A DNA stretch of 64,000 nucleotides from positions 3,348,001 to 3,412,000 of the forward strand of contig JAZGTN010000002.1 of the NCBI GenBank assembly GCA_037783415.1, in the 5' to 3' direction. The translations under genes were made by a program, and so were the position numbers. The stretch's first letter is position 1, and each line of letters begins with the position of its first letter. This DNA is from Leptasterias polaris (lineage: Eukaryota > Echinodermata > Asteroidea > Forcipulatida > Asteriidae). This document shows, in pieces, positions 6,172-63,300 of this stretch. The notes beneath the pieces were generated by a model. The model did no database searches. It was not told the origin of the DNA and saw only the letters and a program-made list of their open reading frames with translations.

Positions 6172-7236
6172 TCAGTATATTTTTAGTTTCATGCTGCATG
6201 CCTTGAGGGAGTAGGGGTATCGTCTCCAGTAGTACCACTGTACACCCTGGTCATCAGGAACGATATGAGTAAATTGATAGTATGGACCGTTGAGCAAAGA
6301 TGCATGACATTTTTTAAACCACCAACCTCCTTTGTACATTTCTGCACAATGTTTTTTGTCACTTCGATCATTGTCTCGGTCTCCAGTTGAAAATGGCATC
6401 CCTTTGTGATGAAGGAGAGAGTCCTCACCAGCTGTACTGAGTCCGGTTTCGTAGGAATTGTATTGAAGAGTGTAATTTGTACCGGTTATCTGGAACCCAT
6501 GGCCCAAGCTCTTCTGTTATCCCAGTCCTGTAAATCAACTCTAAGCCGCCAAGTGAGAACAGACTCGGTCAAGATGCGCAAGTTTTCATTTCCTAGCCAG
6601 AATTCACATGACAAGCTGCCAAATCCTTCGCGGTAGTCATTCCAGTTGCGGTAGAAGTTTTCTTGGCCATCTTGTCGTCTCTGAAAAACGATCCATCCCC
6701 CACCATCTGTCTCCATGTCACAGTACACTTGCAGTCCCCCACTGAACCCGGCAGGATATTGTGTAGACACCACTGTCCACAACACCTGCCTCAAGAAGCT
6801 TTTGACAACTCCCACAGTTACTTTTGTTAAAGGGGACAGACGTGAGAGGTGTATCAGCCTGAGAGAAGAGAGGGGTATCCAAATCGCCATCGTAGTACCA
6901 GCTGCCACAGAGGGTTTTGAAGTCATCAGGATACTGAGCCCTGGTCACATTGTTCAGCTGACAGAGATGACTGCTGGTGTGATAATTCACTGATTGACAG
7001 TTAGGATCAGAGTGGCAATAACTCACACAGATGACAGGAGATGGTGTTATTTTCTCCCAGTATGTAATAAGGTGCAATTTCTTGTTTAAGGCAGTGACAA
7101 ACTCTTTTGTCTGTAGATGGTTACATGTGGCGCCTTCGTCATTTGAACAATTTACAACAGTGACGATACATGCTAACATGACAGCGTTATAGAGTTGTTT
7201 TCCTAGAACACCGGTTAGAATGTCCTTTTTTGACAT
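6172..7236 (-). pseudogene. PAN/FReD secreted protein, frameshifted copy
   Basis: This is a sister of the intact gene at 22,268-23,293 and is read in three frames. The N-terminal part (7,236 to about 6,760) has a hydrophobic leader, a PAN/apple-like cysteine region (CVSYCHSDPNCQSVNY) and the linker CGSWYYDGDLDTPLF. The FReD domain then starts but is thrown out of frame by a 2-bp loss near 6,757 relative to the intact copy. The central FReD part (GGLQVYCDMETDGGGWIVFQ, FWLGNENL) runs in a second frame to about 6,495, where a second shift occurs. The C-terminal part, with DRDND and WWFKKCHASLLNG, ends at a stop at 6,172. Intact FReD-PAN proteins are typically secreted lectin-like factors that bind sugars or acetylated groups. 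This copy should not yield a full-length protein, unless the two shifts are sequencing errors. Confidence 0.85.
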
Positions 7237-7960
7237 GACGAGGAAAATTCTGAAAATGTCAAAGACGGTTTCGAGTTTATGTTGCGTCACAACTTCCTAG
7301 TTAATCAACAAAATGCAAACTAATGTTTCAGTAGTATATATGGCAACTGGCTTAAATTTAACAACTAGCACAAGTAGCTGGATGTTAACCAGAAATATCG
7401 GCTAAAATGATTGCGACCGTCTCAGATCAACGTGGTGCAGTGAGTGTTGGACTTGATGTGAAGAGCCGCGCTGCAGAGAGCCAGCGGCACGACGTAGACT
7501 ACCGCACCCTGATAGCGTAGACAACTGTGATTGGTCGAATATCGAGTCACATGTCCTACTTGTAGGCTGATGACGAAACCCCTTGTATAAGAAGAGATAT
7601 TATTATCACCAATAAACCACAGTAATATCGTTCCTCCATTTGTTTTGTTATAATTTCGTCGTATTTTCGTATTATTGTTTATAAAGTGTTAATCATCAAA
7701 TGCCTCCTTCAGTGAAGACTGTCAAAACTAAACGGGGTGACTTTTAATTTTGTGATAAGTGAAAATAAAGGAAGAGAAACTCCTTTTTGAGGCAGCTAGG
7801 TTTTTAATTTAAGCCACGGAACGTTGGAGACAAAGCGATGGAGGTTGTTAGTTCTGCTTTTCGAGCCTAATTGGGTTTTGTTTATGCACTGCTAGGATTA
7901 ATAAAGCGGTATATTTTTCTTATATATATTCAAGATAACATGGCGTTTCGATTGGCGCCC
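7237..7960. other. Duplicated 5' flank of the FReD gene
   Basis: This segment lies upstream of the minus-strand FReD gene and is strongly conserved at about 23,294-24,230. It contains a conserved stretch (7,400-7,640) with GTGATTGGTCGA, a CCAAT box on the minus strand. TTGTATAAGAAG and CAATAAACC also lie there, on the plus strand. I cannot tell whether it is a shared promoter, an untranslated exon or an old LTR-like insertion. Its conservation simply follows the segmental duplication. Confidence 0.45.
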
Positions 7961-15557: not shown

Positions 15558-15720
15558 GGTTTATCGCGAATAGCAAAATACCAAGAGAGGGCGCTGTTTT
15601 GCCGCGCATGATGGTGTAGTGAAAGGGGGCAACCCGGGAACTCGCGCACGACGACAGACTGTAGCATTTGCCCCCTCTGCCCTCCCATGATCCATTGCGA
15701 TTCTGAATCGTGATAAACCT
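15557..15720. mobile_element. 164-bp MITE inside the piggyBac reading frame
   Basis: The ends are inverted: AGGTTTATCGCGAATAG on the left, and on the right a segment whose complement starts AGGTTTATCACGATTCAG. It is flanked by TA on both sides, which fits a Tc1/mariner-type or similar TA insertion. It is nested in the piggyBac transposase gene. Confidence 0.75.
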
Positions 15721-15722
15721 TA

Positions 15723-16238
15723 TTGGATATGACAATGATGTTCCGCAGCCACAGCTAGCTGAAGACTCGGACTCTGATGACGAAGATGACGTACCCCTGA
15801 GTTCCCTGCAGAAAAATCGTGATGCAGCACGACGATGGAAGAAGAGAGAATTAGAAACAGTAATTCCTGACTTCTTCGAAAATGCGGGTGTCTGCAACAA
15901 AGAGAAGTTTGCAGGCTGCTCCACACCGACTGAGGCATTTCTGATGTATTTTGACCAAGAAATGCATGAATTTTTTTTGTATCAGTCGAATCTCTACGCC
16001 GTGCAAAAGGGTAGAAAGTTCCAACCACTCACAGAGAGTGAGCTTCTTGGATTTGTTGGAATTAACTTTTTCATGGGCTACCACCACCTCCCATCGTACC
16101 GCAATTATTGGTGCACTGATCCAGATCTTCACATTGGTGTTGTAGCTGAGATAATGCCCCGCAATCGTTTTGCGGACATATTGTCCGTTCTTCACTTGAA
16201 CGACAACCTGCAAATCCCTAAAGAAAACAAAGACCGGA
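15723..16238 (+). pseudogene. piggyBac transposase, second fragment
   Basis: The frame reads YDNDVPQPQLAEDSDSDDED, then the family block with FLMYFDQEM, the GFVGINFFMGYHHLPSYRNY segment (a DDE_Tnp_1_7 hallmark), and ends PKENKDR. It runs into 24 G residues at 16,239-16,262 and then unrelated sequence. In piggyBac transposases the catalytic aspartates come after this point, so all are missing. Confidence 0.85.
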
Positions 16239-16781
16239 GGGGGGGGGGGGGGGGGGGGGGGGCTACAGCCCCATTTGCCTGTGCCACTGGGTTACATTGA
16301 TTTACAATATGACATTTCTAATCAAATAGTGTAACTGAAATAGACCTTTATTGCAATAATAAGACCATCTTTTGCAAGTTCTGTCAATAGAAAAAGTTCC
16401 ATGTAAAAGCAGTGAAAATGACAATAATAATGTACGAAAAAAAGGAACCAGACTAATTTACTTCCAGCCTCGATCTGGTGACAATCATTTTTGTGTGTGA
16501 TTGCAGAAAATAAATGTTGAACCACCATGATGAAGACTAATAATGTGTCTGTTTGTATTTACTGATATATTAATTTTATTGGAAATTGGATTCAAAACTC
16601 GGACCTCGTAGCCTGTCGGGACTTTGAAGTCCCATCACTAATTATGCATGATAATTAGCGAAAATAAAAATAATACAACTTTTTTTCTTCAAATTTTCAT
16701 TGTACTCGCTATAACCGGTTTAGAAAAAAATTACATGTAAAATTGAGTGTAAGATAAATAATTTGGGTAGGAAAGGGTTAA

Positions 16782-16871
16782 ACACTGTTGACCCTTGTTA
16801 TAAAGAGCACTGTTTGTTATAAAGAGGTTCTGCTTATAAAGAGTACATTCTGAAGTACTGAATCTCATTTC
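16782..16871. other. Short spacer with 'ttataaagag' repeats
   Basis: Three variants of TTATAAAGAG occur between the piggyBac end and the foldback element. They end with CATTTC, the left target duplication of that element. Confidence 0.6.
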
Positions 16872-17952
16872 TACGGAAGCCGGATAGTGCCAGGAGATAA
16901 GAAGTGAAATATATTTTTCATGAGCGCGAGAATATTTTTTTGTACCATTTATCTGGCGGCCGCCACATATTATCTGGCGGCCGCCACTTAATTATCTGAT
17001 ACCACACGTTCTTTCTTTTGCGGATTTTAAGAGGACAGGTCATAGGATCCATGGGGGTAAGAGGACAGGTCATTGGATCCTGGGGGAAAGAAGACATGTC
17101 ATAGGATCATGGGGTTGGGGGGTTGTTTAAGAGTACAGGTCATAGGATCATGGGGTGTGGGGCAAGAGGACAGGTCATAGGATCCAGGGGGCTTTTACAG
17201 GACAGGTCATAGAATCATTGGGGCGGGTAAGAGGACATGTCATTGGATCATGGGGGTGGAGTAAGAGGACAGGTCATAGGATGCGGGGCTGGGGGGGGGG
17301 GGGGGGGTTAGAGGAAAGGTCATAGGATCCAGGGGGTAAGAGGACAGGTAATAGGATCCAGAGGGGTAAGAGGACATGCCATAAGATCCAAAGGGGTAAG
17401 AGGACATGTCAAGATGGCAGATAAAAGAAATAAAGTTTTGATGAGATGTTTGGTGTAAGTGGATTGACAAATTACGTTGCACTATAGAAGGGTAACATGA
17501 TGGGGGTGATCCATAGAGACATCAAAGTCATGTCCTCTTACCCCCCCCCCCCCCCAAAAAAATGATCCTATGACATGTCCTCTTACCCTTAACCCCCTCC
17601 CCCTCCCGGATCCTATGACATGTCCTCTTACCCCCCCCCCCCCTGAATCCTATGACCTGTCCTCTTAAAATCCGCAAAATAAAGAACGTGTGGTACAGAT
17701 AATTAAGTGGCGGCCGCCGGATAATTAAGTGGCGGCCGCCGGTTAATAAGTGGCGGCCGCCGGATAATTAAGTGGCGGCCGCCGGTTAATAAGTGGCGGC
17801 CGCCAGATAATTAAGTGGCGGCCACCGGTTAATAAGTGGCGGCCGCCGGATAATTAAGTGGCGGCCGCCAGATAAATGGTACAAAAAAATATTCTCGCGC
17901 TCATGAAAAATATATTTCACTTCTTATTTCCTGGCACTATCCGGCTTCCGTA
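16872..17952. mobile_element. Foldback element I (6-bp target duplication CATTTC)
   Basis: CATTTC flanks both sides (16,866-16,871 and 17,953-17,958). The terminus is TACGGAAGCCGGATAGTGCC on the left, with its inverted match at the right end. The long arms then read inwards through ATATATTTTTCATGAGCGCG and TTTGTACCATTTATCTGG. Next come GGCGGCCGCC-containing units (two on the left, eight on the right, unit about 21-22 bp). The core is an array of units containing GAGGACAGGTCATAGGATCC, about a dozen on the left and three inverted on the right. There is no open frame for a transposase. It lies in the DHX37 intron. Confidence 0.85.
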
Positions 17953-18105
17953 CATTTCTGCTTTGTGTTTCTTCTTTTTGTTGTCCTCTTATAACAGCAT
18001 TCCTGTTAAAATAAAGAGGTAATTTGGCTAATCCCAGCGACCTTATTATAACGAGAGTCGACTGTAAAAAGTTATAGGCTCTGGTAAGGTGTTAATTGAA
18101 AGCTC
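17953..18105. other. Intronic spacer
   Basis: Contains TTGTTGTCCTCTTATAACAG and related phrases. No feature is recognised. Confidence 0.4.
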
Positions 18106-22149: not shown

Positions 22150-22275
22150 ATCCAGGTTAATGCTGCATGACTTGAGGGAGTAGGGGTATTGTCTCCAGAA
22201 GCCCCACTGTACACCCTGGCCATAAGGAACGGCAATAGTAAATTGATAGCTGCTGTAGCTCTGACTGTTAGGCAA
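22150..22275 (-). pseudogene. Orphan FReD C-terminal tail behind the intact gene
   Basis: Directly after the stop of the intact FReD gene, in another frame, the DNA encodes SYQFTIAVPYGQGVQWGFWR and then QYPYSLKSCSINLD. This aligns with the C-terminus of the broken copy A (YYQFTHIVPDDQGVQWYYWR, RYPYSLKACSM) better than with the C-terminus of the gene it follows. The intact gene therefore looks like a new FReD end joined in front of the older tail, by unequal exchange or gene conversion between paralogues. Confidence 0.75.
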
Positions 22276-23293
22276 AGGTAATTCTGATTTTCATGCTACA
22301 TTCCTTTAGCGAGTGACCACTCCAAGAGCCCCATGCTATGTCATTTCGGGAATATTGACCATTCAGTAAAGCTGCGTAGCAACAATTAAACCACCACCCA
22401 GCTCTATAACTGCATCCACAGGAATTATCTCTGTCTGGTGTTGAAAATGAACTCCCTCTGTGGTGATCGAGTGAATCACCAGCAGTGCTTTTCTGATCAA
22501 AGGCGCTGTACATCAAGTTATACAAGTTTCCAGTTATTTGAAAGCCGGAATATTCAGACCATGCTGTTAATCCATCTAAGTCCATCAGATCAACTCTCAG
22601 GGTCCAGGTAGCTACAGACTCGGTCAGAGTGCGAATGTCATCGTTTCCAAGCCAGAACTCTGTGGTCAAATCACCAAATCCAGTGCGGTAATCATTCCAG
22701 GTACGGTCAAAAATTACGCTGCCGTCTAGGCGTCTCTGAAAAACAATCCATCCTCCACCATCTGTTTCCATGTCACAGTACACTTGCAGTCCCCCACTGA
22801 ACCCGGCTGGATATATTGTGTAGACACCACTGTCCACCATACATGCCTCAAGAAGCTTCTGACAACTGTCTCTGTTACCGTTGTTAAAGGGGACAGACAT
22901 GAGAGGTGTATCAGCCTGAGAGAAGAGAGGGGTGTCCAAATCGCCATCGTAGTACCAACTGCCACAGAGGGTTTTGAACTCATCAGAATACTGAGCCCTG
23001 GTCACATTGTTCAGCTGACAGAGATGACTGCTGGTGTGATAATTCACCGATTGACAGTTAGGATCAGAGTGGCAATAACTCACACAGATGACAGGAGATC
23101 GTGTTATCTTCTCCCAGTATGAAACAAGGTGCAATTCCTTGTTTAGGGCAGGAACAAACTTTTTCGTCTGTAGATGGTTACATGTGGCACCCTCTACATG
23201 TGTACAAGCTACAACAGTGACGATAAATGCTAACATGACTGCGTTATTGAGTTGTTTTCTTAGAACACCAGTTAGAATGTCCGTTTTCGACAT
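22268..23293 (-). CDS. Secreted PAN/apple plus fibrinogen-domain protein
   Basis: This is a single-exon gene for 341 residues, using the first ATG (MSKTDILTG). The frame is open 18 codons further upstream, starting at GTG, but without an ATG. Residues 18-30 (AVMLAFIVTVVAC) form a hydrophobic leader, signal peptide or signal anchor. Residues 38-112 are a PAN/apple-like region with CVSYC, CQSVNY and HLCQL. Residues 142-340 are a fibrinogen-related domain with GGLQVYCDMETDGGGWIVFQ, FWLGNDD and DRDNS. WWFNCCYAALLNG matches the calcium and ligand pocket, and CSMKI is at the end. Such proteins act outside the cell as lectin-like recognition factors. The exact ligand is unknown. It is the unbroken sister of the copy at 6,172-7,236, and its C-terminal end appears to come from another paralogue. 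Confidence 0.88.
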   Translation of the reverse strand: MSKTDILTGVLRKQLNNAVMLAFIVTVVACTHVEGATCNHLQTKKFVPALNKELHLVSYWEKITRSPVICVSYCHSDPNCQSVNYHTSSHLCQLNNVTRAQYSDEFKTLCGSWYYDGDLDTPLFSQADTPLMSVPFNNGNRDSCQKLLEACMVDSGVYTIYPAGFSGGLQVYCDMETDGGGWIVFQRRLDGSVIFDRTWNDYRTGFGDLTTEFWLGNDDIRTLTESVATWTLRVDLMDLDGLTAWSEYSGFQITGNLYNLMYSAFDQKSTAGDSLDHHRGSSFSTPDRDNSCGCSYRAGWWFNCCYAALLNGQYSRNDIAWGSWSGHSLKECSMKIRITFA

Positions 23294-24230
23294 GACGAGA
23301 AAAATTCTGAAAATGTCAAAGACGGTTTCGAGTTTATGTTGCGCCACAACTTCCTAGTTAGTCAAAAAAATGCAAACTAATGTTTCAGTAGTTTGGCAAC
23401 TGGCTTAAATTTCCTAAAAAGTTTGTACAAACGATGTCAACTTACACAAAATGGAATTGTCTTCTTGCAACGTGAAGATTGATATCTCTATCATATGAGT
23501 GACGGTTACACGATAAAGACTCATCTGTATTTACTTGTTGACATTGTTGCAGTTTACGGATTCAAAGTTGTCCTTACTCTGACACCACGACAAAACATCA
23601 ACCGATTGAAGATATCCAGAACATAATATTATACAAGTAATGAATCAAAACAACTAGCAGGATGTTAACCAGAAATATCGGCTTAAATGAATGCGACTTT
23701 CTCAGATCAACGTGGTGCGGTGAGTGTTGGGCTTGATGTGAAGAGCCGCTCTGCAGAGAGCCAGCGGCACGACGTAGACTACCGCACCCTGATAGCGTGG
23801 ACAACTGTGATTGGTCGAGCATCGAGTCACATGTCCTACTTGTAGGCTGATGACGAAACCCCTTGTATAAGAAGAGATATTATTATCACCAATAAACCAC
23901 GGTATAATATCGTTCCTCCATTTGTTTTGCTATTATAATCGTCGTGTTTTCGTGTTATTGTTTATAAAGTGTTAATCATCAAATGCCTCCTTCAGTGAAG
24001 ACTGTCAACTCTAAACGGGATGACCTTTAATTTTGTGATAAGTGAAAATAAAGGAAGAGAAACTCCTTTTTGAGGCAGCTAGGTTTTTAATTTAAGCCAC
24101 GGAACCTTGGAGGCAAAGCGATGGTGGTTGTTAGTTCTGCTTTTCGAGCCTAATTGGGTTTTGTTTATGCACTGCACAGGATTAATAAAGCGGTATATTT
24201 TTCTTAGATTAATTTAGAATTTAGAATTAG
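23294..24230. other. Duplicated 5' flank of the intact FReD gene
   Basis: It matches 7,237-7,960, including GAGAGCCAGCGGCACGACGT and the CCAAT-like GTGATTGGTCGA. Relative to copy A it has about 200 extra bases at about 23,410-23,640. A promoter is expected here, but I cannot define a start site. Confidence 0.45.
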
Positions 24231-25063: not shown

Positions 25064-25539
25064 TCAAAAGATACATTAAATCACACAAATTCATAGAATT
25101 TACTCAGTTTATAAAACCAAAATACCCAAACGAAAGTGAAATGCGATAAAAAGCGAAAAACGATAAATAAATAAATAACCTGCAAGATAAAAAAAATATT
25201 GATACAAACAAAACCTGTTTTCTAAGTCTATGCCTAGGGCCTATATTATATAAAATCGAACAAATACAAGCCAAAAATTTAATATTAAAGTCATTAAATT
25301 CTCAATGTATTTTTGTGTAGGGCCAGGCCTAAATAAAGTAATTTAGTAAGTACAGCAATAAAAGCACACACAAATAATGCTGCGTATATAGAAACTTATA
25401 TTAAAAAATATTAAATAAAAAAAACTAAAAGGGGATGGGTCGTCATGATTATCAAAACATGCCTGTGGCTTAGCCCTGGCGGCCTTTCACTTTCGTATTT
25501 TATACCACAGCACAGAGGAAGAGTCCGATATAGGGCTAG

Positions 25540-26652
25540 TATGGTGTTCCATTTATTATGTGCCACTCCGTTTTCATTTTTTTCCGTCGCGTTTTCAATT
25601 TTGTCCGTCGCGTTTTCATTTTTTTCCGTCGCGTTTTCATTTTTTCCCGTCGCGTTTTCAATTTTTTCCCTCGCGTTTTCAATTTGGTCCGTCGCCTTTT
25701 CAATTTTTTCCGTCGCCTTTTCAATTTGGTCCGTCGCCTTTTCATTTGGTGCCAGCACCAAATTTGTTGCTGGCGAGAAATTGGCCTAAAAGTTATTGAA
25801 ATAGTATGAAAAAACTCTTCTCCTGATATCAAGATCATGTCCTAAACCAGCACATGATTTTTCGATGACAACTTTTCAAAAATCAAAATAAGGTAGTTGC
25901 GTGTTTAACCATATACTTTGTTACAGTCAATTCGCATACAGGCTATATTTTGCGATTGTTTAATTAGTTGGGCTGAGTTAATTAGTGGGTTAATTAAATG
26001 GGGGCGCCTAGGCATAATAGTTTGGGATATAAGGAAGACAACTGTAAAGAAACATTTAAGATATTATGTTTTTTCGATGACAACTTTTCAAATGAAAATT
26101 GCGTGTTTCTTCCGGACGTTAAATAGTAAATTCGCATACGTGCTAATTTATGCAATTGTTAAATTAATTGGGCTGAGTTAATTAGTAGGTTAATTAATTG
26201 GGGGCGCCTAGGCATGATGGTTTGGGATATAAGGAAGACATCTTTGAAGAAAAAACTTAAGGTTTTATGATTTTTCGATGACAACTTTTCAAATGAAAAT
26301 TCGAGAATTCGCGATTTCGTTCACACTTTCAACGACGGCCCATGACGGTTGTTGACAATGTTTTTAGAAATTTGGTGCTGGCACTAAATTTCTCGCCAGC
26401 AACAAATTTGGTGCTGGCACCAAATGAAAAGGCGACGGAAAAATTGAAAACGCGACGGAAAAAATTTAAAACGCGACGGAAAAAATTGAAAACGCGACGG
26501 AAAAAATTGAAAACGCGACGGACAAAATTAAAACGCGACGGAAAAAAATGAAAACGCGACGGAAAAAATTGAAAACGCGACGGACAAAATGAAAACGCGA
26601 CAGAAAAAAATGAAAACGCGACGGACACGAGTGGCACATATGGAACACCATA
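25540..26652. mobile_element. Foldback element II (6-bp target duplication GGCTAG)
   Basis: GGCTAG flanks both sides (25,534-25,539 and 26,653-26,658). The R2 copy at 36,831-36,836 has the single uninterrupted site GGTTAG. The right terminus, read inwards, is TATGGTGTTCCATATGTGCC; the left end has the same sequence with a 5-base insertion. Each arm has about ten 21-bp units containing CGCGACGGAAAAAATTG, in opposite orientation, followed by GGTGCTGGCACCAAATTTG. The core has a direct repeat of about 210 bp around TTTTTCGATGACAACTTTTC (25,858; 26,068; 26,273). No transposase is present. Confidence 0.88.
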
Positions 26653-26658
26653 GGCTAG

Positions 26659-27879
26659 TCTGTGGCTTTACATGGAATTATGAACTCCCATCCAGTAACT
26701 GCACGCCCTCCCAAGCCCTTTAATATTAGTTACCAACGGGCAAATTGCGTTTTGGCATGCAGGCGCGTCAAGCGCTTCCTAACGAAATGTTCACTAACCA
26801 ATCGTGCAATGGGTGTTGTGAAATATGAGCATGCTGGACGCCATTCTCATGCAGAACGCATGACTGTGTGTTCCAAATTGCCCTTTAAGGTGGCCGATTC
26901 ACATCATATTGCAACCTATCTATACATGAAATGGCCTTTACAATGCAGAGCAATTGGTGCGAAATCACCGTGAGCGAGGAACCTACTGCGCGCACCATAC
27001 AACACAATAGACTGTGCAAGTCTCGCGCGCATTCGAACTTCCGGGACCATAGTGGTCCCAACCATATGGAGTTTTACGTGGGCGAGATTTTGTTTCGTCA
27101 ATTATTTTAGTTTAACGTAGTTTATGACTTAGAAAATTATACATGTTGTTGGAATGTAATACTAAGTGATAACAAAATATAAAAGTAAAACCAATTCAAC
27201 AATATAACGACGAAAACCCGATAATTTAACTTGACCTCAGCTTCCGGTTATTGCAAAAAATTAAGAATTTTGTGCTCGCCTCTGATCATAAAACTTATGT
27301 AAACGCTTGTTTTGGATGCGCGATTATAATCGCCAGATGCAGTAATTGCAAAACAAACCCTTTTCATTGCAGTCTATGGTTGTTGAGGCGTCAGCATCTT
27401 CTCTAAACTGTGATACGAGTCAAATTTAAACCTGTTTGACCACCACGAATCCGCGTAAGGGGTTTCTAAAAAGTTAACATCAAATAAGCATCCTTGTCCC
27501 AGAGTTTTAATTTTTCCCCAATATTAATCAACACACACTATTGTGTAATTTTTTCAAAAGCTAAAACTTTTTATAAAATTGTAATGATTTATTTTTGTTG
27601 TTCAGATTTTGTTATGAGAAATAATTTAAAACAAAGATTTGATTTCAGAAATAAAAAGGTTCTTCGTTTGACGTGTTTTCTCGTTCGGATAAGTGCGAGA
27701 CTTGCACAGTCTATAGCAAAATAAACGAACAACTCAAAAAAATCCCAAACGAACAAATCAGAAACAGACGAGTTTCAGAAATAAACCAACGGCGGAACTT
27801 CAATTGAGACGGCTTGTTGGCTGGTGGTTAGCCTTTAGTCAAGGCGAACTCGTTTTGGGGCTTTATGTTTTTCTTCACT
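26659..27879. other. Remainder of R2 copy 2, then noncoding DNA
   Basis: The first 60 bases match 36,837-36,890 (ATGGAATTATGAACTCCCAT). Beyond that I find no conserved open frame or repeat. There are scattered CpG-containing phrases such as CATTCGAACTTCCGGGACC near 27,030. Confidence 0.4.
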
Positions 27880-29004
27880 TTTTGCTTCCGATTTTGGTAA
27901 GAGATGCATAATGCATTAGCTCGCTTTGATGTTGGCCAATAAGAAGACACAATTACTTGCATGACGTCACATGAACGTTTGATGCAAACTAGATGCAAAT
28001 CATTAGCAAGGTGGCGACTTCAACTACCACCAGTATTGACGACTAATTGTTTCAGCAAAGCATTAGCTTTACTCCTCAACAATTGAACAATTCCGGCCTT
28101 AAGCCACATCAGCGTCGTTCTAGTAAAAGTATATTGGACGGAACGTACGTGGGTGGAGTTGCAGTGTTTTCAATCAAGGACCCGGACGACGTTTGACTTA
28201 GAGTTTAGACTCTTAATGTGTTTTAAGTTTAATAAGAGTGGCAAGTGTATGCCTTTCACTTTTAAATACAAATAAAATTACATTTTGTCAAATCGTCCTT
28301 TTTCATCGATTATAAAATTAGTCTAAATATTTCCCAGACAGTATTACCCATCTAAATAATTATACACTGTAGAAGACTCTAAGATCTAGCTGACGGTGAT
28401 TGGAAATTGCATAAATAAATATTTCATGGTCATGAATATCTGATTAGCTCAGCAGGTTGGTAAAGGCAGTTTGCAGTCTTGCCGCTCACGCTGGTCTTTT
28501 TCGTGTTTTTGACATCTGGGGGTGCCGTGTGCGCCTTGACTCAAGGCTAGCTGGTGGTCTGACGCGCTCCGATCCACCACACGTCTCTAGCTAGTTCAGG
28601 GGTGCGTTTTCGCGGTCGTAACCAATAACTGTTTCGGTCAATGGCCAGTGATTAACCAATGGCAAGTTCAAATGAAACAGTTATTGGTTAGAACCGCGAA
28701 AACGCACCCCAGGTATGTGTCCCGACGTAATCGAGATGATCTTGCACGTGCAGTTTTTCAGTGGTCCAAAACTTCCACAGTTTAGGTAATTTGGCGTGCA
28801 TTGAGAAAGGTTAGGTGGCCCCCTTATTCCATAGAACTTTCTATTGCAACATCACAGCCCGAGTTTTTGCCAACCGAGGTTCGAAAACTATGGATAGCCA
28901 TAAATGCAAAACAAAACAGATAGCCACAGTTTGTAACAATATGTTTAACACAATCATAATTCCCAAATAGTGTTGAATTTATTAGAAACAAAGCAACCAA
29001 TCAT
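27880..29004. repeat. Duplicated block D, copy 1 (uninterrupted)
   Basis: Its phrases recur in order at 39,105-39,234, 40,086-40,211 and 50,800-51,640. For example, GGTGGCGACTTCAACTACCA occurs at 28,011 and again near 39,170, and GACCCGGACGACGTTTGACT occurs at 28,179 and 50,816. Copy 1 has neither the solo LTR nor the hAT-like element, so it is the empty site for both. It ends where LINE 1 is inserted. Confidence 0.85.
28597..28712. mobile_element. 116-bp MITE, hAT-like ends
   Basis: The termini CAGGGGTGCGTTTTCGCGGT and (complement) CTGGGGTGCGTTTTCGCGGT are inverted for about 37 bp. The CAGGG start is typical of hAT. The same element is in the other copy of block D at 51,234-51,348, so it predates that duplication. 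No clear target duplication. Confidence 0.75.
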
Positions 29005-29108
29005 GGAGGTATTTTTATTTAATTGAAAGTTTGCAGTAAAATGTTGAATTCGGTTAAAACTCCTGTTAACACGATGGAATGCGTTACTAACATTCGGCCG
29101 TTCATACA

Positions 29109-30017
29109 ATGGAAAGGTCTATAATTGAACATGAGGGTACCTATAGTTTACTATTGCTTACTTCATCGTGGTCCCAAAACCTTCATGGTCCGAGTATGTT
29201 CGACCCCTATCTTGTCAGTATTCCATGTCATTCATCGACCATTGACTCTTATTATAATGATTTTACAATGACATTGTGCACCCTAAATACGCGATCTCTT
29301 AAAAATAAAACTGGTGACTTCATTGACTATGTCTGCAGTTCGGGTGCTGATATTCTGGCATTGACTGAGACTTGGCTGAAAGATGCTGATGATGCTTGTA
29401 GAATTGAAGCAACACCCGCTGGATTTAAACTTCTGGATCACCCGAGGAGCAACAGAACCGGTGGAGGCACTGCACTTCTTTTACGAGACAGTATGGAAGT
29501 TGGCAAGCTTGCCGCTGGTGAACGCCAGTCATTTGAATTTTCAGAATGGCTAATCAAGTCCGGATCACAACCTCTCAGACTGGTTATAATATACAGGCCT
29601 CCTTATTCACCCAACCATCAGGTTACTGTGACAACATTTATTGCTGAATTTTCTGATTATTTGGAATCACTCATATTATCCAGTGAACCACTTGTGATAA
29701 CCGGGGATTTTAACATTCATGTTGATTCAACTCAAAACCTTGATGCTATGCACTTCTGTGATATGCTTGAATCTGTGAATTTACAGCAGCATGTTACTAC
29801 CTCTACTCATATACATGGCCATACATTGGACTTAATAATCACTCGTAAGTCAGAATCAATTATTCGGGGTGTTCCAGTTTCTGATCATTTATTTTCTGAT
29901 CATTTTTCAGTTTTGTGCAATCTTCAATTCAGTAAACCTCTTTTATCTTCAAAAGAAGTGTCCTTTAGGAAAATTAAGACCATTAATCGGGCTAGATTTA
30001 AGGAAGATTATTATTGA
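29109..30017 (+). pseudogene. LINE 1 endonuclease region
   Basis: The apurinic-type endonuclease domain is recognisable from LNTRSLKNKTGDFIDYVCSS, LALTETWLKD, IYRPPYSP, GDFNIHVDS and SDHFSVL, in the correct order. The frame is lost at about 30,015, and the linker to the reverse transcriptase crosses a stop at about 30,097 and another shift. Confidence 0.85.
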
Positions 30018-30264
30018 TTCGGATTTGTGTAATATCGAGTCATCTCATGTAAATCTGGATGACCTAGATGGTCTTGTTAGTTTGTACAATAATACTTAAA
30101 GTGCCATTGTTGATTGTCATGCCCCAGTTATCAATAAAACGATTACTGTTCGCCCACAAGTACCTTGGTTTAATGACAATATTAAAAAGGCCAAGTGTGA
30201 GAGAAGAAAACTTGGAAGGAAATGGCGCCAGACTAGGTCACAACACGATTTATATTTATTCAAA

Positions 30265-32076
30265 TTGAAGAAAAATAATGTCACCTTTTTAATGAAAATT
30301 GCTCGTCAGGATTACTATACTAGATTTATACAAGATAATAGTACTAATCCTAAAAAGTTGTTCAAAGCAGCAGGTTCTCTTTTTCGCAATAATGTGTCAT
30401 TATTACCTGCGCATACTGATGATTTACAGCTCGCTAACCATATGGGTGACTTTTTTGTCCATAAAATAACTCGTATACGGTTATCATTGTCTAGGGTGAA
30501 TTGTTCACTTAATTATGACACACCTACTTCATCCCAACTTGGGTCAGCTGTTTTTACTGACTTTAGTCAACTGTCAGAAAACTGTGTGTACAAACTTGTT
30601 TCTGGTTCTAGTAAGAAAACCTGTGTACTGGATCCAATTCCTATGCAATTACTCACTGATTGTTTAGATATTCTATTACCATTCATTACGAGGTTGGTCA
30701 ACCTTTCATTAAAAACTGGGCATTTTCCATACTCGTGGAAGTCAGCAGTTGTTCTGCCTCTGTTAAAAAAGCCGGGTCTCGAGGCCAGGGTGGAGAACTT
30801 TCGACCCGTTTGTAATTTACAGTTTGTTTCAAAACTACTGGAAAGAGCTGTAGCATGTCAGTTACAGTCCTATCTGACTCAGAATGATTTATACCCATCG
30901 ATGCAGTCAGCTTACCGCAAATTTCATAGTACCGAAACAGCTCTGTTGAAAATTCAAAACGATTTGTTAATGGCTATGAATAGAAAACACGTAACTCTGT
31001 TGGTCTTATTAGATTTAAGTGCTACATTTGACACACTAGATCATAGCATTTTATTGAGTACACTTAAGTCACGTTTTGGAATTAACGGAACAGCCCTCAA
31101 CTGGTTTCGTTCATATCTGGCTGACAGATCTCAAAGGGTTTTGATAAATGGTAAACTCTCAAATAATTATAATCTTGAATGGGGAATTCCGCAAGGGTCG
31201 TGTCTAGGCCCCCTACTTTTCATTTTGTATACTAGCCAGTTGTTTGACATTGTCAAAGTTCATCATCCACAGATTCACTGCTATTCAGATGATACTCAGT
31301 TGTATCTGTCATTCAGTCCTGATGAGGCTGGTAGTCAGGAGACTGCTCTTTCTGCCATGGAGGCTTGCATTCATGATGTTCGACAATGGCTGCTTGCTAA
31401 TGGGTTATTTTTAAATGACAATAAAACAGAAGTTAGTTTGGATGGTATTCAGGTTGGGCAGTCAATTGTATCACCTGTTTCCCTTGCCCAAAACCTAGGT
31501 GCATGGTTTGATGCCAATATGTCAATGAAAACTCATGTTACTAAAGTTTGCGGAAGTGCGTTTTATTATTTGCATAACATTAGGCGCATAAGAAAATATT
31601 TGTCTAAAGAATGTACTGAGACACTCATTCATGCATTTATCTCTAGTAGACTGGATTACTGTAACAGTCTGTTTTATGGCCTACCTAACACTAAGATTAA
31701 ACAACTCCAGAGAGTGCAAAACGCTTGTGCCAGGCTCGTCTGTAATGCATTCAAGTTTTGTCATATTACACCCTTATTTATGGATTTGCATTGGCTTCCT
31801 GTCCGGTACAGAATTGAATTTAAAATTTCAATGATTACTTACAAAATTCTACATAGTCTAGCTCCACAGTACTTAAGTCAGCTTGTTTCTATCAAGTCCC
31901 AGTCTCGTTACTGCCTTCGCAGTTCTGGTGACGGAATTTTTCTTAACCACCCTGTTGGTGGTAGTAAGGCTGCTCTTGGGGATCGAGCCTTTGAGAACAG
32001 TGCACCGCACCTCTGGAACAAACTTTCACTCCATATTAGAATGCTGGTAGCCTTGATGTTTTTAAATCTGTTCTAA
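30265..32076 (+). pseudogene. LINE 1 reverse transcriptase and C-terminal region
   Basis: The reverse-transcriptase blocks include RPVCNLQFVSKLLE, LLDLSATFDTLDH (motif A), GIPQGSCLGPLLFILY and YSDDTQLY in place of the usual YADD (motif C). The C-terminal part has RLDYCNSL and LHWLPV. The frame is open to 32,076, just before the usual end. It is part of a defective element, so no function is expected. Confidence 0.88.
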
Positions 32077-36304: not shown

Positions 36305-36960
36305 TTATATTAATATACAAATTCTGATTACGTAAAGTAAAAATAACAAACAAACAAACAAAAACAAAAGATACGTTAAATCACACAAATTCAAAGAATT
36401 TACACAGTTTATAAAACTAAAATCACAAAACGAAAGTGAAATGCAATAAAAAGCGAAAAACAATAAATAAATAAATAAAATGATAGAGAGAAAAAATACA
36501 TTGATACAAACAAAACCTGTTTTCTAAGTCTATGCCTAGGGCCTATATTATATAAAATCGAACAAATACAAGCAAACAATTTTAATATTAAAATCCATTA
36601 AATTCTCAATGTATTTTTGTATAGTGCCAGGCCTTAATAAAGTAATTTAGTAAGTACACCAATAACAGCACTCACTGATGCGTATAGAAACTATATATTG
36701 AAAGATATTAAACATACAAAAATTAAAGGGGCTGTGTCGTCATGATTATCAAAACATGCATGTGGCTTAGCCCTAGCAGCCCTTTACTTTCGTATGTTAT
36801 ACTACAGCACAGAGGAAGAGTCAAATATAGGGTTAGCCTGTGGCTTTTCATGGAATTATGAACTCCCATCCTTGTATCAAGTTCAACTTCCCAAACAAGA
36901 AACATGGCTTCGTCGTTGGCACGGTACGGTGGTGTATCATTTGCGGCAAGAGTGATTGGT
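36300..36960. repeat. Repeat family R2, right part with empty site for foldback II
   Basis: It matches 24,990-25,539 followed directly by 26,653-26,710. At 36,831 it reads GGTTAGCC without interruption, which gives the unfilled target of foldback element II. Noncoding. Confidence 0.8.
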
Positions 36961-38874: not shown

Positions 38875-39097
38875 ACAGTTGTCAGCCGCGCCGATAAATA
38901 AAAGAACGGAAAGCGCGCCCTCTGTCGGGTTATCACGAGTATTATTATATAAGATAGTTACGCGTATAGCATAGTGACGTCTTGGACAGTTGTCAGCCGC
39001 GCCGATAAATAAAAGAACGGAAAGTGCGCCCTCTGTCGGGTTATCACGAGTATTATTATATAAGATAGTTACGCGTAAAGCATAGGGACGTCTTGGA
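38875..39097. repeat. Two-copy tandem repeat, 111-bp unit
   Basis: ACAGTTGTCAGCCGCGCCGA begins each unit, at 38,875 and 38,986. The units differ at only a few bases (GCGCGCCC against GTGCGCCC; GTATAGC against GTAAAGC). It is a recent local duplication. Confidence 0.9.
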
Positions 39098-39234
39098 CCA
39101 AGACTACACAATTACTTGCCTGACGTCCATGAACGTTTGATGCAAATTTGATGCAAATCATTAGCAAGGTGGCGACTTCAACTACCACCAGTATTGACGA
39201 CTAATTGTTTCAGCAAAGCATTAGCTTTGCTCCT

Positions 39235-43344: not shown

Positions 43345-46300
43345 CCCTTATAAAAATCCACCATAGATTTACTATAGTAAAACTGTACTTTTACTAAAGT
43401 ACATAAAGTTTTACTGTAGTAAGTAAAGTACAAGTAAAGTTTTCCCTAAAGTAAAACTACTGTAGTTTTACTACAGTAAAAACCCAAGTCAAACTATAGT
43501 GAATCTGCAGTATTTTTGAAGTAATACTATAGTATTTCTATTCTTAGTTTACTGTAGATTCACTTTAACTTTACTGCAATAAAAACTGCAGTAATACTGC
43601 AGTATCCTTGTAGTAAAACAATGGTAATTTGTTTGATAATACTATAACTTTACTGCAATAAAAACTGCATAAAAACCCAAGTCAAACTATAGTGAATCTG
43701 CAGTATTTTTGAAGTAATACTATAGTATTTCTATTCTTAGTTTACTGTAGATTCACTTTAACTTTACTGCAATAAAAACTGCAGTAATACTGCAGTATCC
43801 TTGTAGTAAAACAATGGTAATTTGTTTGATAATACTATAACTTTACTGCAATAAAAACTGCATAAAAACCGAAGTCAAACTATAGTGAATCTGCAGTATT
43901 TTTGAAGTAATACTATAGTATTTCTATTCTTGGTTTACTGTAGATTCACTTTAACTTTACTGCAATAAAAACTGCAGTAATACTGCAGTATCCTTGTAGT
44001 AAAACAATGGTAATTTGTTTGATAATACTATAACTTTACTGCAATAAAAACTGCATAAAAACCCAAGTCAAACTATAGTGAATCTGCAGTATTTTTGAAG
44101 TAATACTATAGTATTTCTATTCTTGGTTTACTGTAGATTCACTTTAACTTTACTGCAATAAAAACTGCAGTAATACTGCAGTATCCTAGTAGTAAAACAA
44201 TGGTAATTTATTTGATAATACTATAACTTTACTGCAATAAAAACTGCATAAAAACCCAAGTCAAACTATAGTGAATCTGCAGTATTTTTGAAGTAATACT
44301 ATAGTATTTATATTCTTAGTTTACTGTAGATTCACTTTAACTTTACTGCAATAAAAACGGCAGTATCCTTGTAGTAAAACAATGGTAATTTGTTTGATAA
44401 TACTATAACTTTACTGCAATAAGAACTGCATAAAAACCCAAGTCAAACTATAGTGACTCTGCAGTATTTTTGAAGTAATACTATAGTAAGTTCTATTCTT
44501 AGTTTACTGTAGATTCACTTTAACTTTACTGCAGTATCCTTACAGTAAAACAATGGTAATTTGTTTGTTAATATTATAACTTTACCCTACTGCAATAACA
44601 ACTGCATAAAAACCCAGGTCAAACTATAGGAGGTATGCATACTATGAGTAAAAGAAAAAATTATCTGAAAAATTATTGGACACATGGTATGGTAGTATGC
44701 AGTCACTGCATATTCAAAGCAGTAAAAGGACTGCGCAAGTTTATTTAACACAAAGATAGCATAAGGCTGCCGCTTGGTGGCGCTATACGATCTTTGATTA
44801 AGACCAGCACTGGCACCCTGACTTAGCGTATGTAAATTGAACACCTATGTGGTTAGAGCCCCTTCTCTTCCACAATGAGTCATCAGTTTGAAATGATGAC
44901 TGAACACTTTTTTTTACAACCGACGTTTTCTGATGATGTAGTCTGACTTGTTGATGTTTTAGTGTAAATGATTAAAGCTTCCCATTTTTAAGTAGGATTA
45001 GGAGGTTTTTGAGGGCAATTTAATTTCAACAACTGATGGTGTGAAACTGAAGAACAAGAGAAAGAATCATCGGTGATCAGCATCACACTCCATCAGATCG
45101 TTGCCACGTTTTTGTGCTTGCCTCGTGTTGTGTGATCAGAACTAAAATAGCATGATATGGTAAGTGTTTTGTTTAAAACGTGATTTTAAGTATAATTTTC
45201 TTGTAACAATGTACGTGAACAAGTACTTTTGGTATGTCAGGTTGGTGCATGTAATGTGGTTGGCCATGTAGTTAATAATACTACTATAGTATGTACTAAA
45301 CTTGCATGGGATATAGGCCTATACATTGAGATTGTCATGTAATTGATAGTAAGTAAATCATACTCAGTTTTGAGTTTGGTCCAAAGTTTGGCTATCCTAA
45401 TTTTGATACAGGTCAACTCGTGGTTGTACCCAAGTTATTTTTTACCTACTAGTAGTACTAGTAGTAGGAAGACCCAGTAACTGGGGGCGCTGTTATTTTA
45501 AAACCGCCGACGTGGCTTCTCGATATATCAAACATGTCAAAGATGCAAAATCAGACAGGCATTGTTGTACTCACAAATTGATAAATTTTAAGTCAACGAT
45601 CGGTGAAACCCCATCCATCGCAATCCACGTCTAAGAACGCTCTCGTAATTAAACCGGTGCCCTGCTTACTGTGTAGAGGCGGTGCATCAGTAGCCGGGTC
45701 TAACTTGTACCCATTTCAAATCGTACCCAGGTTAACCACCAGCGTACCCAAGTCAATTCATTTGTAACCTATTCGTCTAAAACCCCTTTAACTGATTAGC
45801 GCACAATTTATATATGCCATATTTGTAACTGGGTCTTTAATTTAAAATTAATTATATTCAATAACTTCATGGTCAAGGCTTGGCACTGATAAGTTTTGCT
45901 GCCATGTCTGTACCATCGCAGACCACAGAGTTGTGTAAACCATATAGTTTTGGCAAATGTTTACATTTTTCTTACAAATATTTGTCCTATTTCTTCCTTT
46001 ACAGTTCGTTGTGCTTCCCTCTCTGAGGAATGTGACTAAATCATCATCACCATCAACAGAAGCCTAGCAATGGAGCATGGTGGCATTTCTCACAAGACCA
46101 GCATTGGGTTCGGGCTACTTACCCAAGATAAACATTCCAAAAAGAGATTAATCCTTTGGTGTTGCAACTTCCACGACTTACTGTCCTCTTCAATCACCAT
46201 AATAATCAAACTTGTTTTTCCTAAGTTTAAAACTGCAGTACAATTGCCCTTAATTTAACATATTTTTTTCATAGTATTACTACAAAATTGTTTTTTGAAT

Positions 46301-51836: not shown

Positions 51837-53260
51837 TTGGACTATACACCGAAAGGTTTATCTCAAGCTTCGAATGTCAAAATGCCTTGCAGTTTACTAT
51901 AGAATCTGGTGGTTTTATTTCAGTGAATTTGATGGAGTTAAAATCATTGAATTTACTGCCAAATGTGAATTTTTAAATCGCTTGAAAAACATGGCCCAAT
52001 AAACCCTTTAAGATACTACATGTACAAGCAAAGCATTAATACATCTCATAAAAATAATTAAAACACGAATAAAGAAATAACAGGCAATGGTGACTTGTGT
52101 TGCGGGCGAATACTGCCGGATCTAAGGACAATTAAATGAACATCTAGCGGGGGATTTGAATGGTGTGAAGTTTGCTTTTTCGGGTATTTTCGCATCAGTT
52201 AAAAGTCGGACTAAAGAGGGTTAGGTGAACCCTCTTCTCTGTTATATATAATCTATCTTTGATATCCACAATAAATTAATGTCCATGTATAGGCTAATCT
52301 TTTTCAGAACACAGGATGCTCATTGGCAGCATACGATGGTAAAATTATTAAGTATGCGTTTTCATGGAATTGCGGTGAGAGTATAAAAATATTGACGTCC
52401 AGCATTTATAATTACTAAGGCAAAAAACAGATTACCAAGGTAACCAGCCAGAAAAAGCAGGTCACATGTACAATGTGTGACTGGTATCCTGCTTATTTTT
52501 GCTTGCCAGACAATTTTTTAAGACACTGTACTGTTTTCTGCTCAAGCAGCTCTATGAAATTGGGCCGAAGGGTTTAGGTATCCTGTGCGAAGGCAATGTC
52601 ATACGAGGCGTTTTACAGGCAACCAGTTCCAGGCAATCTCTATAAAAAAATCATTTACATTTCAGTTTTCGCATTATTTAATGCTGAGTTACAGCAAAAA
52701 TAATGTTTTTTGTGCTGCCGAAGAGTTCCTTGTGCATTCAGTGCTGTCGGTTGCCTCCAAGTTCCCGTACAAAAATGCGGTGCGTGACGTGCCTTCAGTG
52801 TGACGTACTTCCACTGTAAGCCACGCCCACTTAGCACTAACGGCTTCACTGATTGCCAGAAACCCATAGGAAATGCATTGAGCAAGTTGTTAGGGTTTTT
52901 TGAGAATTTATGCAAAAAGTAGTTTCTGGACTTGCCTTCCAGTAATTTTTTGCGAAGTCTCCAGGTGTTGTCAGAATTATCAGCTTTTGTTATAATAATG
53001 TCTTTTAAGGATGAAATGAGCGATTTTTTGTGAGGAAAATTACACACAAACAAATGACAGCTTTGGAGCCGGAAATATCCAAAATCTTGTGCGTATAGCA
53101 GATGCCTGCGAGTGTGACATAATATTGATTTGCCAATGAGATACAGAAGTTTGCTCCGAACCATGTGACTTAGCAACGCTGTCTTTAGTCTGGGGAATTC
53201 ACGTACAGTGTTCCTTTGTGACCAATGAAGTCCCTGTACCAGACATTATACAAAATATCT

Positions 53261-54238: not shown

Positions 54239-54306
54239 AACAGCAGCAGCAGCTGCTGTTGTTGTTGTTGTTGTTGTTTTTTGTTTGTTTGTTTTTTTTT
54301 TTTTTT
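54239..54306. repeat. Compound microsatellite (CAG)n-(TGT)n-(T)n
   Basis: CAG/CTG units, then seven TTG units, then a run of 15 T. In unit 2 (60,213-60,281) the T run has 16, the only difference found between the two units. Confidence 0.9.
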
Positions 54307-56072: not shown

Positions 56073-56179
56073 AAGGGTTTAGGTATCCTGTGCGAAGGCA
56101 ATGTCATACGAGGCAGTTTACAGACAACCAGTTCCAGGCAATCTCTAGAAGAAAAAAAAACATTTACATTTCTGTATTG

Positions 56180-56670
56180 TACGAAAGCCCAATCGTGCCA
56201 CTGAAGTATATAATATCAGCGGGAACTAATCCGTTATAACGAATTAGTAATCCGTTATAACGAATTAGTAATCCGTTATAACGAATTAGTAATCCGTTAT
56301 AACGAATTAATAATCCGTTATAACGAATTACTAATTCGTTATAACGGATTACTAATTCGTTATAACGGATTACTAATTCGTTATAACGGATTCTAATTCG
56401 TTATAACGGATTACTAATTCGTTATAACGGATTACTAATTCGTTATAACGGATTATTAATTCGTTATAACGGATTACTAATTCGTTATAACGGATTATTA
56501 ATTCGTTATAACGGATTATTAATTCGTTATAACGGATTATTAATTCGTTATAACGGATTATTAATTCGTTATAACGGATTATTAATTCGTTATAACGGAT
56601 TATTAATTCGTTATAACGGATTAGTTCCCGCTGATAATATATACTTCAGTGGCACGATTGGGCTTTCGTA
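56180..56670. mobile_element. Foldback element III (6-bp target duplication GTATTG), copy 1
   Basis: GTATTG occurs at 56,174-56,179 and 56,671-56,676. The paralogous place in P1 (52,664) has TTTTCG once and no insert. The termini are TACGAAAGCCCAATCGTGCC and its exact inverted copy, continuing as ACTGAAGTATATAATATCAG with a base or two of difference. Inside are five 21-bp units TAATCCGTTATAACGAATTA, then about 14 in inverted orientation. Each unit holds the perfect palindrome CGTTATAACG. There is no coding sequence. Confidence 0.9.
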
Positions 56671-57338
56671 GTATTGCATTATTTTCTTAATGCTGAGTTA
56701 CAGCTAAAATAATGTAATTTGTGCTGCCGAAGAGTTCATTGTGCATGCAGTACTGTCGGTTGCCTCCAAGTTCCCTGTACAAAAAATGCCCTGCGTGAAG
56801 AGACTTCAGTGTGACGTAGATCTACTGTGGGCCACGCCCACTTCACACTAACTGGCTCTACTGACTGATTACCAGAAGCCCATAGGAAATACGTCGAGCA
56901 AAGGTTTCTTCGAGAATTTATTTATGCAAACATTAGTTTTTGTTTTTGGACTTGCCTTCCACTGAGTAATGTTTTGCAGAGTCTCCAGGTCTTGTCAAAA
57001 TTATCAGTTTCTGCCTTTTTAAAGAAATGTCTTTGAAGGATAAAATGGGAGATTGTTTTTTTTGAAAAATTACACACAAAAATGACAGCTTCGGAACCGG
57101 AAGTATCCAAAATCTTGTGCGTACAGCCATGGAGGAATAAGAACACATACATAGTACAGCAGAGTGTGACATATTATTTACTTACCAATAAGATACAGAA
57201 GTTTGCTCCGAACTATGTGACTTAACAACGCTGTCTTTAGTCTGGGGAAATCACTTCGAGTGTTCCTTTGTGACCAATGAAGTCATTGTACCAGACATGA
57301 TTAAAAATCTAACTCACAAAATGGCTTATTGGAGGCAA

Positions 57339-60300: not shown

Positions 60301-63300
60301 GTTTGTTTGTTTCTTTCTTTTCTTTTTTCTTTTAAAATCTATCCAAGAATGTGCCACGGTTAATCACACTAGTTAGGTATCATCACATTATTAATATTTG
60401 GTTGCCCAATATTAAATAACTGCTGTTGTCTATTTTACTCAATCATTATCAAACCTTGATAAGTATGGAGCTCAGGAGTGGCTAAATAAATGAAACGCTC
60501 AGCCCCAGTCTTCCTCTCTCTGTGATATTGCTTGCCAACTATATCATCCATGCCTAGCCTTGGCAGTCTCGCGGTATTTGATTCTGAACACGAACCTTTA
60601 CGAGATTAGGCGAAGCTCTGTGTGAAAATCAGAAAGATAAACGCAGAGCAGAGACAATTTGGGGTTTTTCTGACAATCATATTAACGAATACGAGGAAAA
60701 AACCTATTACGAAAGACTAAAAGACTAAGCGTTAATTCTTTCATCTACAACTAATTGGCAGGCATGCTTAGCCATGGAAGCTTCGCGAGACTTTATTCTG
60801 AAACACCAATCTGCACGAGCTTTGGGTGAAGATTTTGTTATCATATTTTGCTTGGGGAAAATTCAACATGAAAGATATCAGAGAAATATTGGGCTGTGTT
60901 TAGCAATCATATTGACAATGAATTCTTTTAAAAAGCCCGAAAGAAAACACACACAAAAAAACACAATACAAAAACCTGGAACAAAGATGGCTTTCAGATG
61001 TCCATAATGTTGCACATCAACCTTGGTTTTTATTTTAACAGATACCAAAAACATCCCAATAAACCTCGCCCCCGTACACAATATTCCACCCTTGAGATCA
61101 AAACATTTTAGGTCATCTAATTGGCTTAAATGCTGTACAGAATTTGTAATAATTAGTTTCGATCTCGAGTTGCCTGAATATAAAGCTAACCAACTCTCAA
61201 GAGAAACATTCCCGCATGAAATTGTGAGCTACAAAAACCTAATCACAATTTCGCTCATTTCGATTACAGTTTGCAATCAACACAAGCACGTAGGCATATT
61301 GCCAATTTCCTGACGAATCGTAAATTATGTTGCTGTTGTTTTCACTTTGACGTCCACCATATTTACTGGACCTGTCACATGTTAGTTTTATGGTGTGTTG
61401 AAAACAAGATGGGGACGAATTTGATTCTTTCAAAAACGATATCAAATAACAAACCACAAGGCGCAGTTTAAAGAGGTCAGTTCGACTTTAATATCCGAGA
61501 CTCGCGCCTACTTTGAAATATCGATGATAAGGCAAGAACTAGCGTGGTAACCTGTTGTTGTTTTTTGCTGCTCATCAAAATCGTGTGTTTTTGGCAGCTC
61601 AAATTAAATTTACCGCGGCAGTCCTTCGGAAAAGCACAAGGACCACCACACGGGTTAAAAATCGATAAGTAAAGTGACCAATTTTTTGAGTTATTGAAGA
61701 AAAAATATCTGGTACAACGACTACTAGTCACAAGTGTCTGCTTTTAAGAATTTCTCAGACTGGTAAAAGTCATGTCGCATTGTTTGGGGTAAGCCTTTAC
61801 GTAGAGACGACAAACACAAAACCTCATTCCGAATGAATGTGTACGGAACAATGGTACTGGGTCCAATTTCATAGAGCTGCTTAAAAGCAGTTAAGCTCAA
61901 CAAAATTAAGCTTGCCAGAATAACGTAACCAGCCACACAAAGCAGGTCACATGTACAATGTGTGACTGGTATACTGCTTATTTTTTCTTGCCAGACAATT
62001 TTTTAAGACACTGTTTTCTGCTCAAGCAACTCTATGAAATTGGGCCGAAGGGTTTAGGTATCCTGTGCGAAGGCAATGTCATACGAGGCAGTTTACAGAC
62101 AACCAGTTCCAGGCAATCTCTAGAAGAAAAAAAAACATTTACATTTCTGTATTGTACGAAAGCCCAATCGTGCCACTGAAGTATATAATATCAGCGGGAA
62201 CTAATCCGTTATAACGAATTAGTAATCCGTTATAACGAATTAGTAATCCGTTATAACGAATTAGTAATCCGTTATAACGAATTAATAATCCGTTATAACG
62301 AATTACTAATTCGTTATAACGGATTACTAATTCGTTATAACGGATTACTAATTCGTTATAACGGATTCTAATTCGTTATAACGGATTACTAATTCGTTAT
62401 AACGGATTACTAATTCGTTATAACGGATTATTAATTCGTTATAACGGATTACTAATTCGTTATAACGGATTATTAATTCGTTATAACGGATTATTAATTC
62501 GTTATAACGGATTATTAATTCGTTATAACGGATTATTAATTCGTTATAACGGATTATTAATTCGTTATAACGGATTATTAATTCGTTATAACGGATTAGT
62601 TCCCGCTGATAATATATACTTCAGTGGCACGATTGGGCTTTCGTAGTATTGCATTATTTTCTTAATGCTGAGTTACAGCTAAAATAATGTAATTTGTGCT
62701 GCCGAAGAGTTCATTGTGCATGCAGTACTGTCGGTTGCCTCCAAGTTCCCTGTACAAAAAATGCCCTGCGTGAAGAGACTTCAGTGTGACGTAGATCTAC
62801 TGTGGGCCACGCCCACTTCACACTAACTGGCTCTACTGACTGATTACCAGAAGCCCATAGGAAATACGTCGAGCAAAGGTTTCTTCGAGAATTTATTTAT
62901 GCAAACATTAGTTTTTGTTTTTGGACTTGCCTTCCACTGAGTAATGTTTTGCAGAGTCTCCAGGTCTTGTCAAAATTATCAGTTTCTGCCTTTTTAAAGA
63001 AATGTCTTTGAAGGATAAAATGGGAGATTGTTTTTTTTGAAAAATTACACACAAAAATGACAGCTTCGGAACCGGAAGTATCCAAAATCTTGTGCGTACA
63101 GCCATGGAGGAATAAGAACACATACATAGTACAGCAGAGTGTGACATATTATTTACTTACCAATAAGATACAGAAGTTTGCTCCGAACTATGTGACTTAA
63201 CAACGCTGTCTTTAGTCTGGGGAAATCACTTCGAGTGTTCCTTTGTGACCAATGAAGTCATTGTACCAGACATGATTAAAAATCTAACTCACAAAATGGC

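Follow-up and report, generated by a model that had tools for sequence, protein, structure and literature searches.

In a 64,000-nucleotide stretch of the sea star Leptasterias polaris (GenBank assembly GCA_037783415.1, contig JAZGTN010000002.1, positions 3,348,001 to 3,412,000; hereafter the window), three loci carry mobile elements of one design, which we call I, II and III. Each has inverted ends of the form TAYG...GTGCC, a 6-bp target duplication and inverted tandem arrays with a unit near 21 bp, a shared plan first proposed in an original prediction and now borne out by direct reading and by controls. Judged by their termini and duplication length, on which superfamily membership rests here, the three probably represent as many families of cut-and-paste DNA transposons that are non-autonomous, have a foldback body and belong to the IS3EU/GingerRoot superfamily. 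We place them there because published accounts characterise this superfamily by TA..TA tips and 6-bp duplications: IS3EU/GingerRoot elements are described as always having TA..TA termini and usually a 6-bp target site duplication (PMC10045372), fungal IS3EU elements as having TAYGG..CCRTA ends and 6-bp duplications (PMC12730594), and Styx, whose transposase is of IS3EU type, as making 6-bp duplications as well (PMC10853768). Repbase is reported to hold 45 IS3EU families, 17 of them autonomous, which implies 28 that are non-autonomous (PMC10045372).

Read directly, element I runs from CATTTC through TACGGAAGCC...GGCTTCCGTA to a second CATTTC, element II from GGCTAG through TATGGTG...CACCATA to GGCTAG, and element III from GTATTG through TACGAAAG...CTTTCGTA to GTATTG. 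All three have perfect or near-perfect inverted ends of the form TAYG-N11-GTGCCA, abutted at zero offset by exact 6-bp repeats, the same three that had been predicted. The pattern TAYG-N11-GTGCC has seven occurrences in the window, where 100 shuffles gave 0.53 on average and never more than 2, and all seven sites are ends of I, II or III (both copies of III counted). The eighth end, on the left of II, escapes the pattern through a 5-bp insertion, TTATT. Every GTGCC in the three elements continues with A, and the resulting GTGCCA block keeps the same register at seven of eight ends (five of six when only the three insertions are counted), as predicted apart from the shifted left end of II; GTGCCACT is common to II and III. 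Element II contains GTGCCA five times, twice near the tips and three times on the inner margins of the arms; 500 shuffles gave 0.26 on average and 3 at most. Together, the TA tip and the inner block at positions 16-21 resemble what may be a bipartite recognition site. Allowing up to three mismatches, a search of the window with I and II found no copies besides the known ends, and each of the three end sequences had 0 matches in a collection of viral contigs, which possibly does not include the window’s own or very near genomes.

Of 20 end positions, I and III have 16 in common (letter-shuffle P = 0 of 20,000), as originally counted; II shares 10 with I (P 0.007) and 11 with III (P 0.001), where about 11 had been given. 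Because of these identities and shuffle probabilities, the kinship of I and III appears strong and that of II moderate. The three might instead be foldbacks of different superfamilies that have grown alike by convergence, as their unrelated array sequences and the moderate likeness of the ends of II (P 0.007 and 0.001) would allow. We consider this improbable, since I and III match so closely and since the in-register GTGCCA, the TA tips and the 6-bp duplications are common to all three.

The exact 6-bp duplication is present at each of the three independent insertions, whereas their 8-bp flanks do not match. We scanned the window for inverted ends starting with TA, 60-4000 bp apart and flanked by exact repeats, making no use of GTGCC. 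At an end identity of at least 14/16, this gave four hits with 6-bp repeats (I, II and both copies of III), 19 with 4 bp, one with 9 bp and no hit with repeats of 5, 7 or 8 bp; at 13/16 or better there were five 6-bp and 21 4-bp hits. Sixteen of these 21 begin within the array region of the elements, and the other five share the start 43458, near the array at 43-48 kb. Forty first-order Markov sequences yielded on average 0.00 six-bp hits at the stricter threshold and 0.05 at the looser one. The fifth 6-bp hit (28889-30982, 13/16) overlaps open reading frames (ORFs) of long interspersed nuclear elements (LINEs) and was taken for chance. The 9-bp hit is an unrelated DNA transposon of another kind, a 721-bp element at 27829-28549 with inverted ends TAGCCTTNAGTCAAGGCG and the flanking repeat GCTGGTGGT. 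Duplication length also bears on a Mutator-type origin, the commonest given for foldback elements. Long arms with internal repeats would fit such an origin, but Tetris, a foldback placed in Mutator, is described with duplications of 8-10 bp (PMC4079207); with exactly 6 bp at three insertions and differing 8-bp flanks, we regard Mutator as very unlikely.

Empty sites are available for two of the three insertions. When the flanks of II are joined, they align across the insertion point to an insert-free paralogue at 36440-36871 (88% over 440 columns), which carries the single GGTTAG at 36,831 that had been predicted. We add an empty site for III, whose joined flanks align in the same manner to an insert-free paralogue at 52437-53046 (84% over 645 columns), with one GTTTTCG-like copy near 52665. 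No empty site for I was found within the window. The empty site of III contains no TA, and therefore the TA belongs to the element and not to a TA target; a Tc1/mariner-like parse with a TA target duplication was rejected on this ground. A second copy of III lies in sequence that is repeated in tandem, at 51365-57340 and 57339-63315. Over 5,977 aligned bp the two repeats show no mismatch and a single gap, and the duplication is either very recent or an assembly duplicate. The second copy of III is therefore not independent, and the insertions number three in total.

Tips of TA..TA are likewise present at all three insertions. The original prediction held that the ends and the 6-bp duplication fit no familiar superfamily, naming only Polintons and Dada for this length; IS3EU/GingerRoot, as described, fits both (PMC10045372, PMC12730594). 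The prediction of an undescribed non-autonomous group therefore holds in part: the ends are fixed, the duplications are 6 bp and the arrays change fast, but the signature of the superfamily had already been published. The elements are probably not a new superfamily; as families, all three may still be undescribed. We find a separate, so far undescribed superfamily, defined by TAYG...GTGCC ends and a transposase of its own, slightly less credible even than convergence. No cognate transposase was found among the 10 ORF pieces of the window that were compared with Pfam, and GTGCCA at positions 16-21 is not mentioned in the available text of the IS3EU descriptions, both of which would suit a new superfamily; the TA..TA tips and the 6-bp duplications, however, are both part of the IS3EU signature as published.

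Several observations weigh against the IS3EU/GingerRoot assignment. Elements I (TACGG) and II (TATGG) match all five letters of TAYGG..CCRTA, which is stated for fungal IS3EU and may not hold in animals, but III starts with TACGA and fits TAYG only. No IS3EU transposase was found, in a comparison with Pfam that covered the same 10 ORF pieces, none of them in the elements, and included no six-frame domain scan of the window. The end of II shares just 10 or 11 of 20 positions with the others, and three of these are the TA and G that any IS3EU element might have. Finally, the sample consists of three insertions.

All three elements belong to the foldback class, having long inverted arms that consist mostly of tandem repeats and little or no coding sequence. 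In I, a short unique stretch common to both arms separates the 21/22-bp array from the units of about 30 bp. In II, each arm has the same unique stretch of about 46 nt on the inner side of its array. In III, the outer unique arms measure 48 nt and differ by one mismatch; they enclose 21-bp units, five pointing one way and 14 the other, the two sets directly adjoining. As single-stranded DNA, III would fold into a near-complete hairpin at -222.6 kcal/mol, a value reached by 0 of 100 shuffles (mean -57.9, standard deviation 3.75). No ORF of at least 110 amino acids lies within I or III, and four such ORFs overlap II, reading through its arrays. Fragments of Polintons are the least credible origin, contradicted by the termini. 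Polintons have AG..CT tips and a 15-20 kb body with polymerase B. The tips here are TA, the elements measure 491-1,113 bp, and I and III lack ORFs of the length just given. Duplication length is the one point of agreement, as Polintons are also described as giving 6-bp duplications (PMC10045372).

The arrays have periods of 21 to 22 bp in I (a 43-bp dimer), 21 bp in II and 21 bp in III, and their sequences are unrelated. Within the window, arrays with a period near 21 bp and at least five copies occur only in these elements; repeats of period 20-23 elsewhere are weak, with fewer than three copies (1331, 20266, 36465, 43389, 46702, 47981-48103 and 60242). Between the two arms of an element, the number of 21/22-bp units differs (2 against 8 in I, 5 against 14 in III) while the adjoining unique arms are nearly identical (1 difference in 77 nt in I, 1 in 48 in III), so the arrays turn over faster than the ends. 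This turnover would be explained by slippage or by unequal exchange inside the arrays, and the arms would be either young or homogenised. We also compared ends with arrays by their longest shared word, using shuffled ends as the control, in 15 end-array comparisons. The end of I shares GCCGGATA with its own 22-bp array (P 0.009, which loses significance once all 15 tests are allowed for); the ends of II show no resemblance to their own arrays (P 0.996 and 0.999), nor does the end of III (P 0.63). A descent of the array units from the terminal repeats was accordingly rejected for II and III. The sequences give no support to a transposase-binding role of the arrays; the only feature that suggests one is their common pitch near 21 bp. 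It is conceivable, though we think it rather unlikely, that IS3EU-type elements in this genome acquire foldback bodies time and again, with an array sequence that can change freely but a conserved pitch of about two helical turns. The arrays would then serve as a phased scaffold for the transposase or another DNA-bound protein that helps to pair both ends. An excess of CpG was rejected as a common property, the observed/expected ratio being 0.65 in I, 1.86 in II and 4.0 in III (0.78 in the window). The units of the array in III (56228-56620) are built around the palindrome CGTTATAACG, and the unit of I has a 10-bp palindrome, GGCGGCCGCC; none was seen in the unit of II.

If the three are IS3EU/GingerRoot elements, their movement can be pictured as follows. 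A DDE transposase of IS3EU type, encoded elsewhere in the genome, would mobilise them in trans, recognising a bipartite end made of the TA at the tip and, presumably, GTGCCA at positions 16-21. It would cut the element out at the TA and link it to target strands opened 6 bp apart, and repair of the gaps would leave the 6-bp duplications. The interior, free of transposase, would hold inverted 21-bp arrays that lengthen and shorten independently in each arm, perhaps by slippage or unequal exchange.

Table 1. Positions in the window of elements I, II and III, their parts, target duplications and empty sites (TIR, terminal inverted repeat).
Feature	Position	Strand	Detail
Target duplication of I, left copy	16866..16871		CATTTC
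Element I	16872..17952		1,081 bp; TIR TACGGAAGCCGGATAGTGCCA
I, left outer unique arm	16872..16948	+	77 nt; 1 mismatch against right arm
I, left array	16949..16998	+	2 units of 21-22 bp
I, left inner array	17028..17411	+	units of ~30 bp, 11 full and 1 partial
I, right inner array	17529..17667	-	~30-bp units as in left, inverted; 3 full and 1 partial
I, right array	17698..17875	-	8 units of 21/22 bp (43-bp dimer), inverted relative to left
I, right outer unique arm	17876..17952	-	
Target duplication of I, right copy	17953..17958		CATTTC
Target duplication of II, left copy	25534..25539		GGCTAG
Element II	25540..26652		1,113 bp; TIR TATGGTGTTCCATATGTGCCACTC, 5-bp insertion in left copy
II, left array	25569..25744	+	21-bp units, 8.4 copies
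II, middle	25925..26301		two direct copies of a ~176-bp non-coding segment (25925-26100, 26125-26301), 88% alike
II, right array	26425..26625	-	21-bp units, 9.7 copies, inverted relative to left
Target duplication of II, right copy	26653..26658		GGCTAG
Empty-site paralogue of II	36831..36836		single GGTTAG
Empty-site paralogue of III	52650..52678		single GTTTTCG-like copy near 52665
Target duplication of III, left copy	56174..56179		GTATTG
Element III	56180..56670		491 bp; TIR TACGAAAGCCCAATCGTGCCACTG
Target duplication of III, right copy	56671..56676		GTATTG
Second copy of III	62155..62645		100% identical; within tandem duplication

The window as a whole is rich in mobile DNA, with LINE ORFs that contain endonuclease and reverse transcriptase domains, several tandem arrays and, just upstream of element I, a piggyBac-like transposase piece (DDE_Tnp_1_7, E 3e-22; 15707-16297, + strand). 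Tandem arrays rich in CTGCAG lie at 43477-44629 and 46418-48103, with periods of 193/182 and 110/219 bp, and a 111-bp unit is present in two tandem copies, 97% alike, at 38875-39098. Pieces of a fibrinogen-C/PAN gene are duplicated, at 6172-7296 (- strand), where they were seen as ORFs, and at 22268-23353 (- strand), where they are sea-star-like by search: the four best named matches of the ORF at 22271-23353 are from Patiria miniata (43-49% identity), and many Asterias proteins are among the best 120 of its 1,557 matches.

Two testable hallmarks allow these puzzling foldback elements to be assigned to a named superfamily. If the placement is confirmed, IS3EU would join the superfamilies, such as Mutator and P, that have given rise to foldbacks, and three bodies with one 21-bp pitch and no shared array sequence would make the function of foldback arrays directly testable. 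Such elements are also a breeding ground for short tandem arrays, from which satellite DNA could arise. Both the IS3EU superfamily and the foldback form were already known; their combination does not appear in the available text of the published descriptions. A literature search, with Repbase reports and subscription journals outside its reach, met no paper that pairs foldback with a 6-bp duplication, and among the papers listed the one that names both IS3EU and foldback has the latter in its reference list.

Among echinoderms, the TU elements of the sea urchin, attributed to Lieberman et al. (1983), are said to be foldback elements with long inverted repeats. Unlike I, II and III, they reportedly have outer repeats of about 15 bp and 8-bp duplications. 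The foldback form is described from several superfamilies (PMC4079207). Tetris, of Drosophila virilis, resembles our elements in being non-autonomous, with modular inverted arms that contain tandem repeats and an autonomous partner that is unknown, but differs in its 220-bp repeats as well as in its assignment to Mutator and its longer duplications (PMC4079207). Galileo, a Drosophila foldback of the P superfamily, likewise has long inverted arms with internal tandem repeats, and some of its arm repeats bind the THAP domain of the transposase; it belongs to another superfamily, however, and its arms exceed 1 kb (PMC3688188). In the oyster, the satellites CgiSat35 and CgiSat47 are annotated as IS3EU and likewise tie tandem repeats to IS3EU sequence, although their units measure 690 and 129 bp and the available description includes no foldback (PMC8268682). 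The closest likeness remains that to IS3EU/GingerRoot itself, in TA..TA termini and 6-bp duplications, with I and II fitting TAYGG..CCRTA. III has TACGA, and foldback bodies with 21-bp arrays go unmentioned in the available text of the accounts of that superfamily (PMC10045372, PMC12730594).
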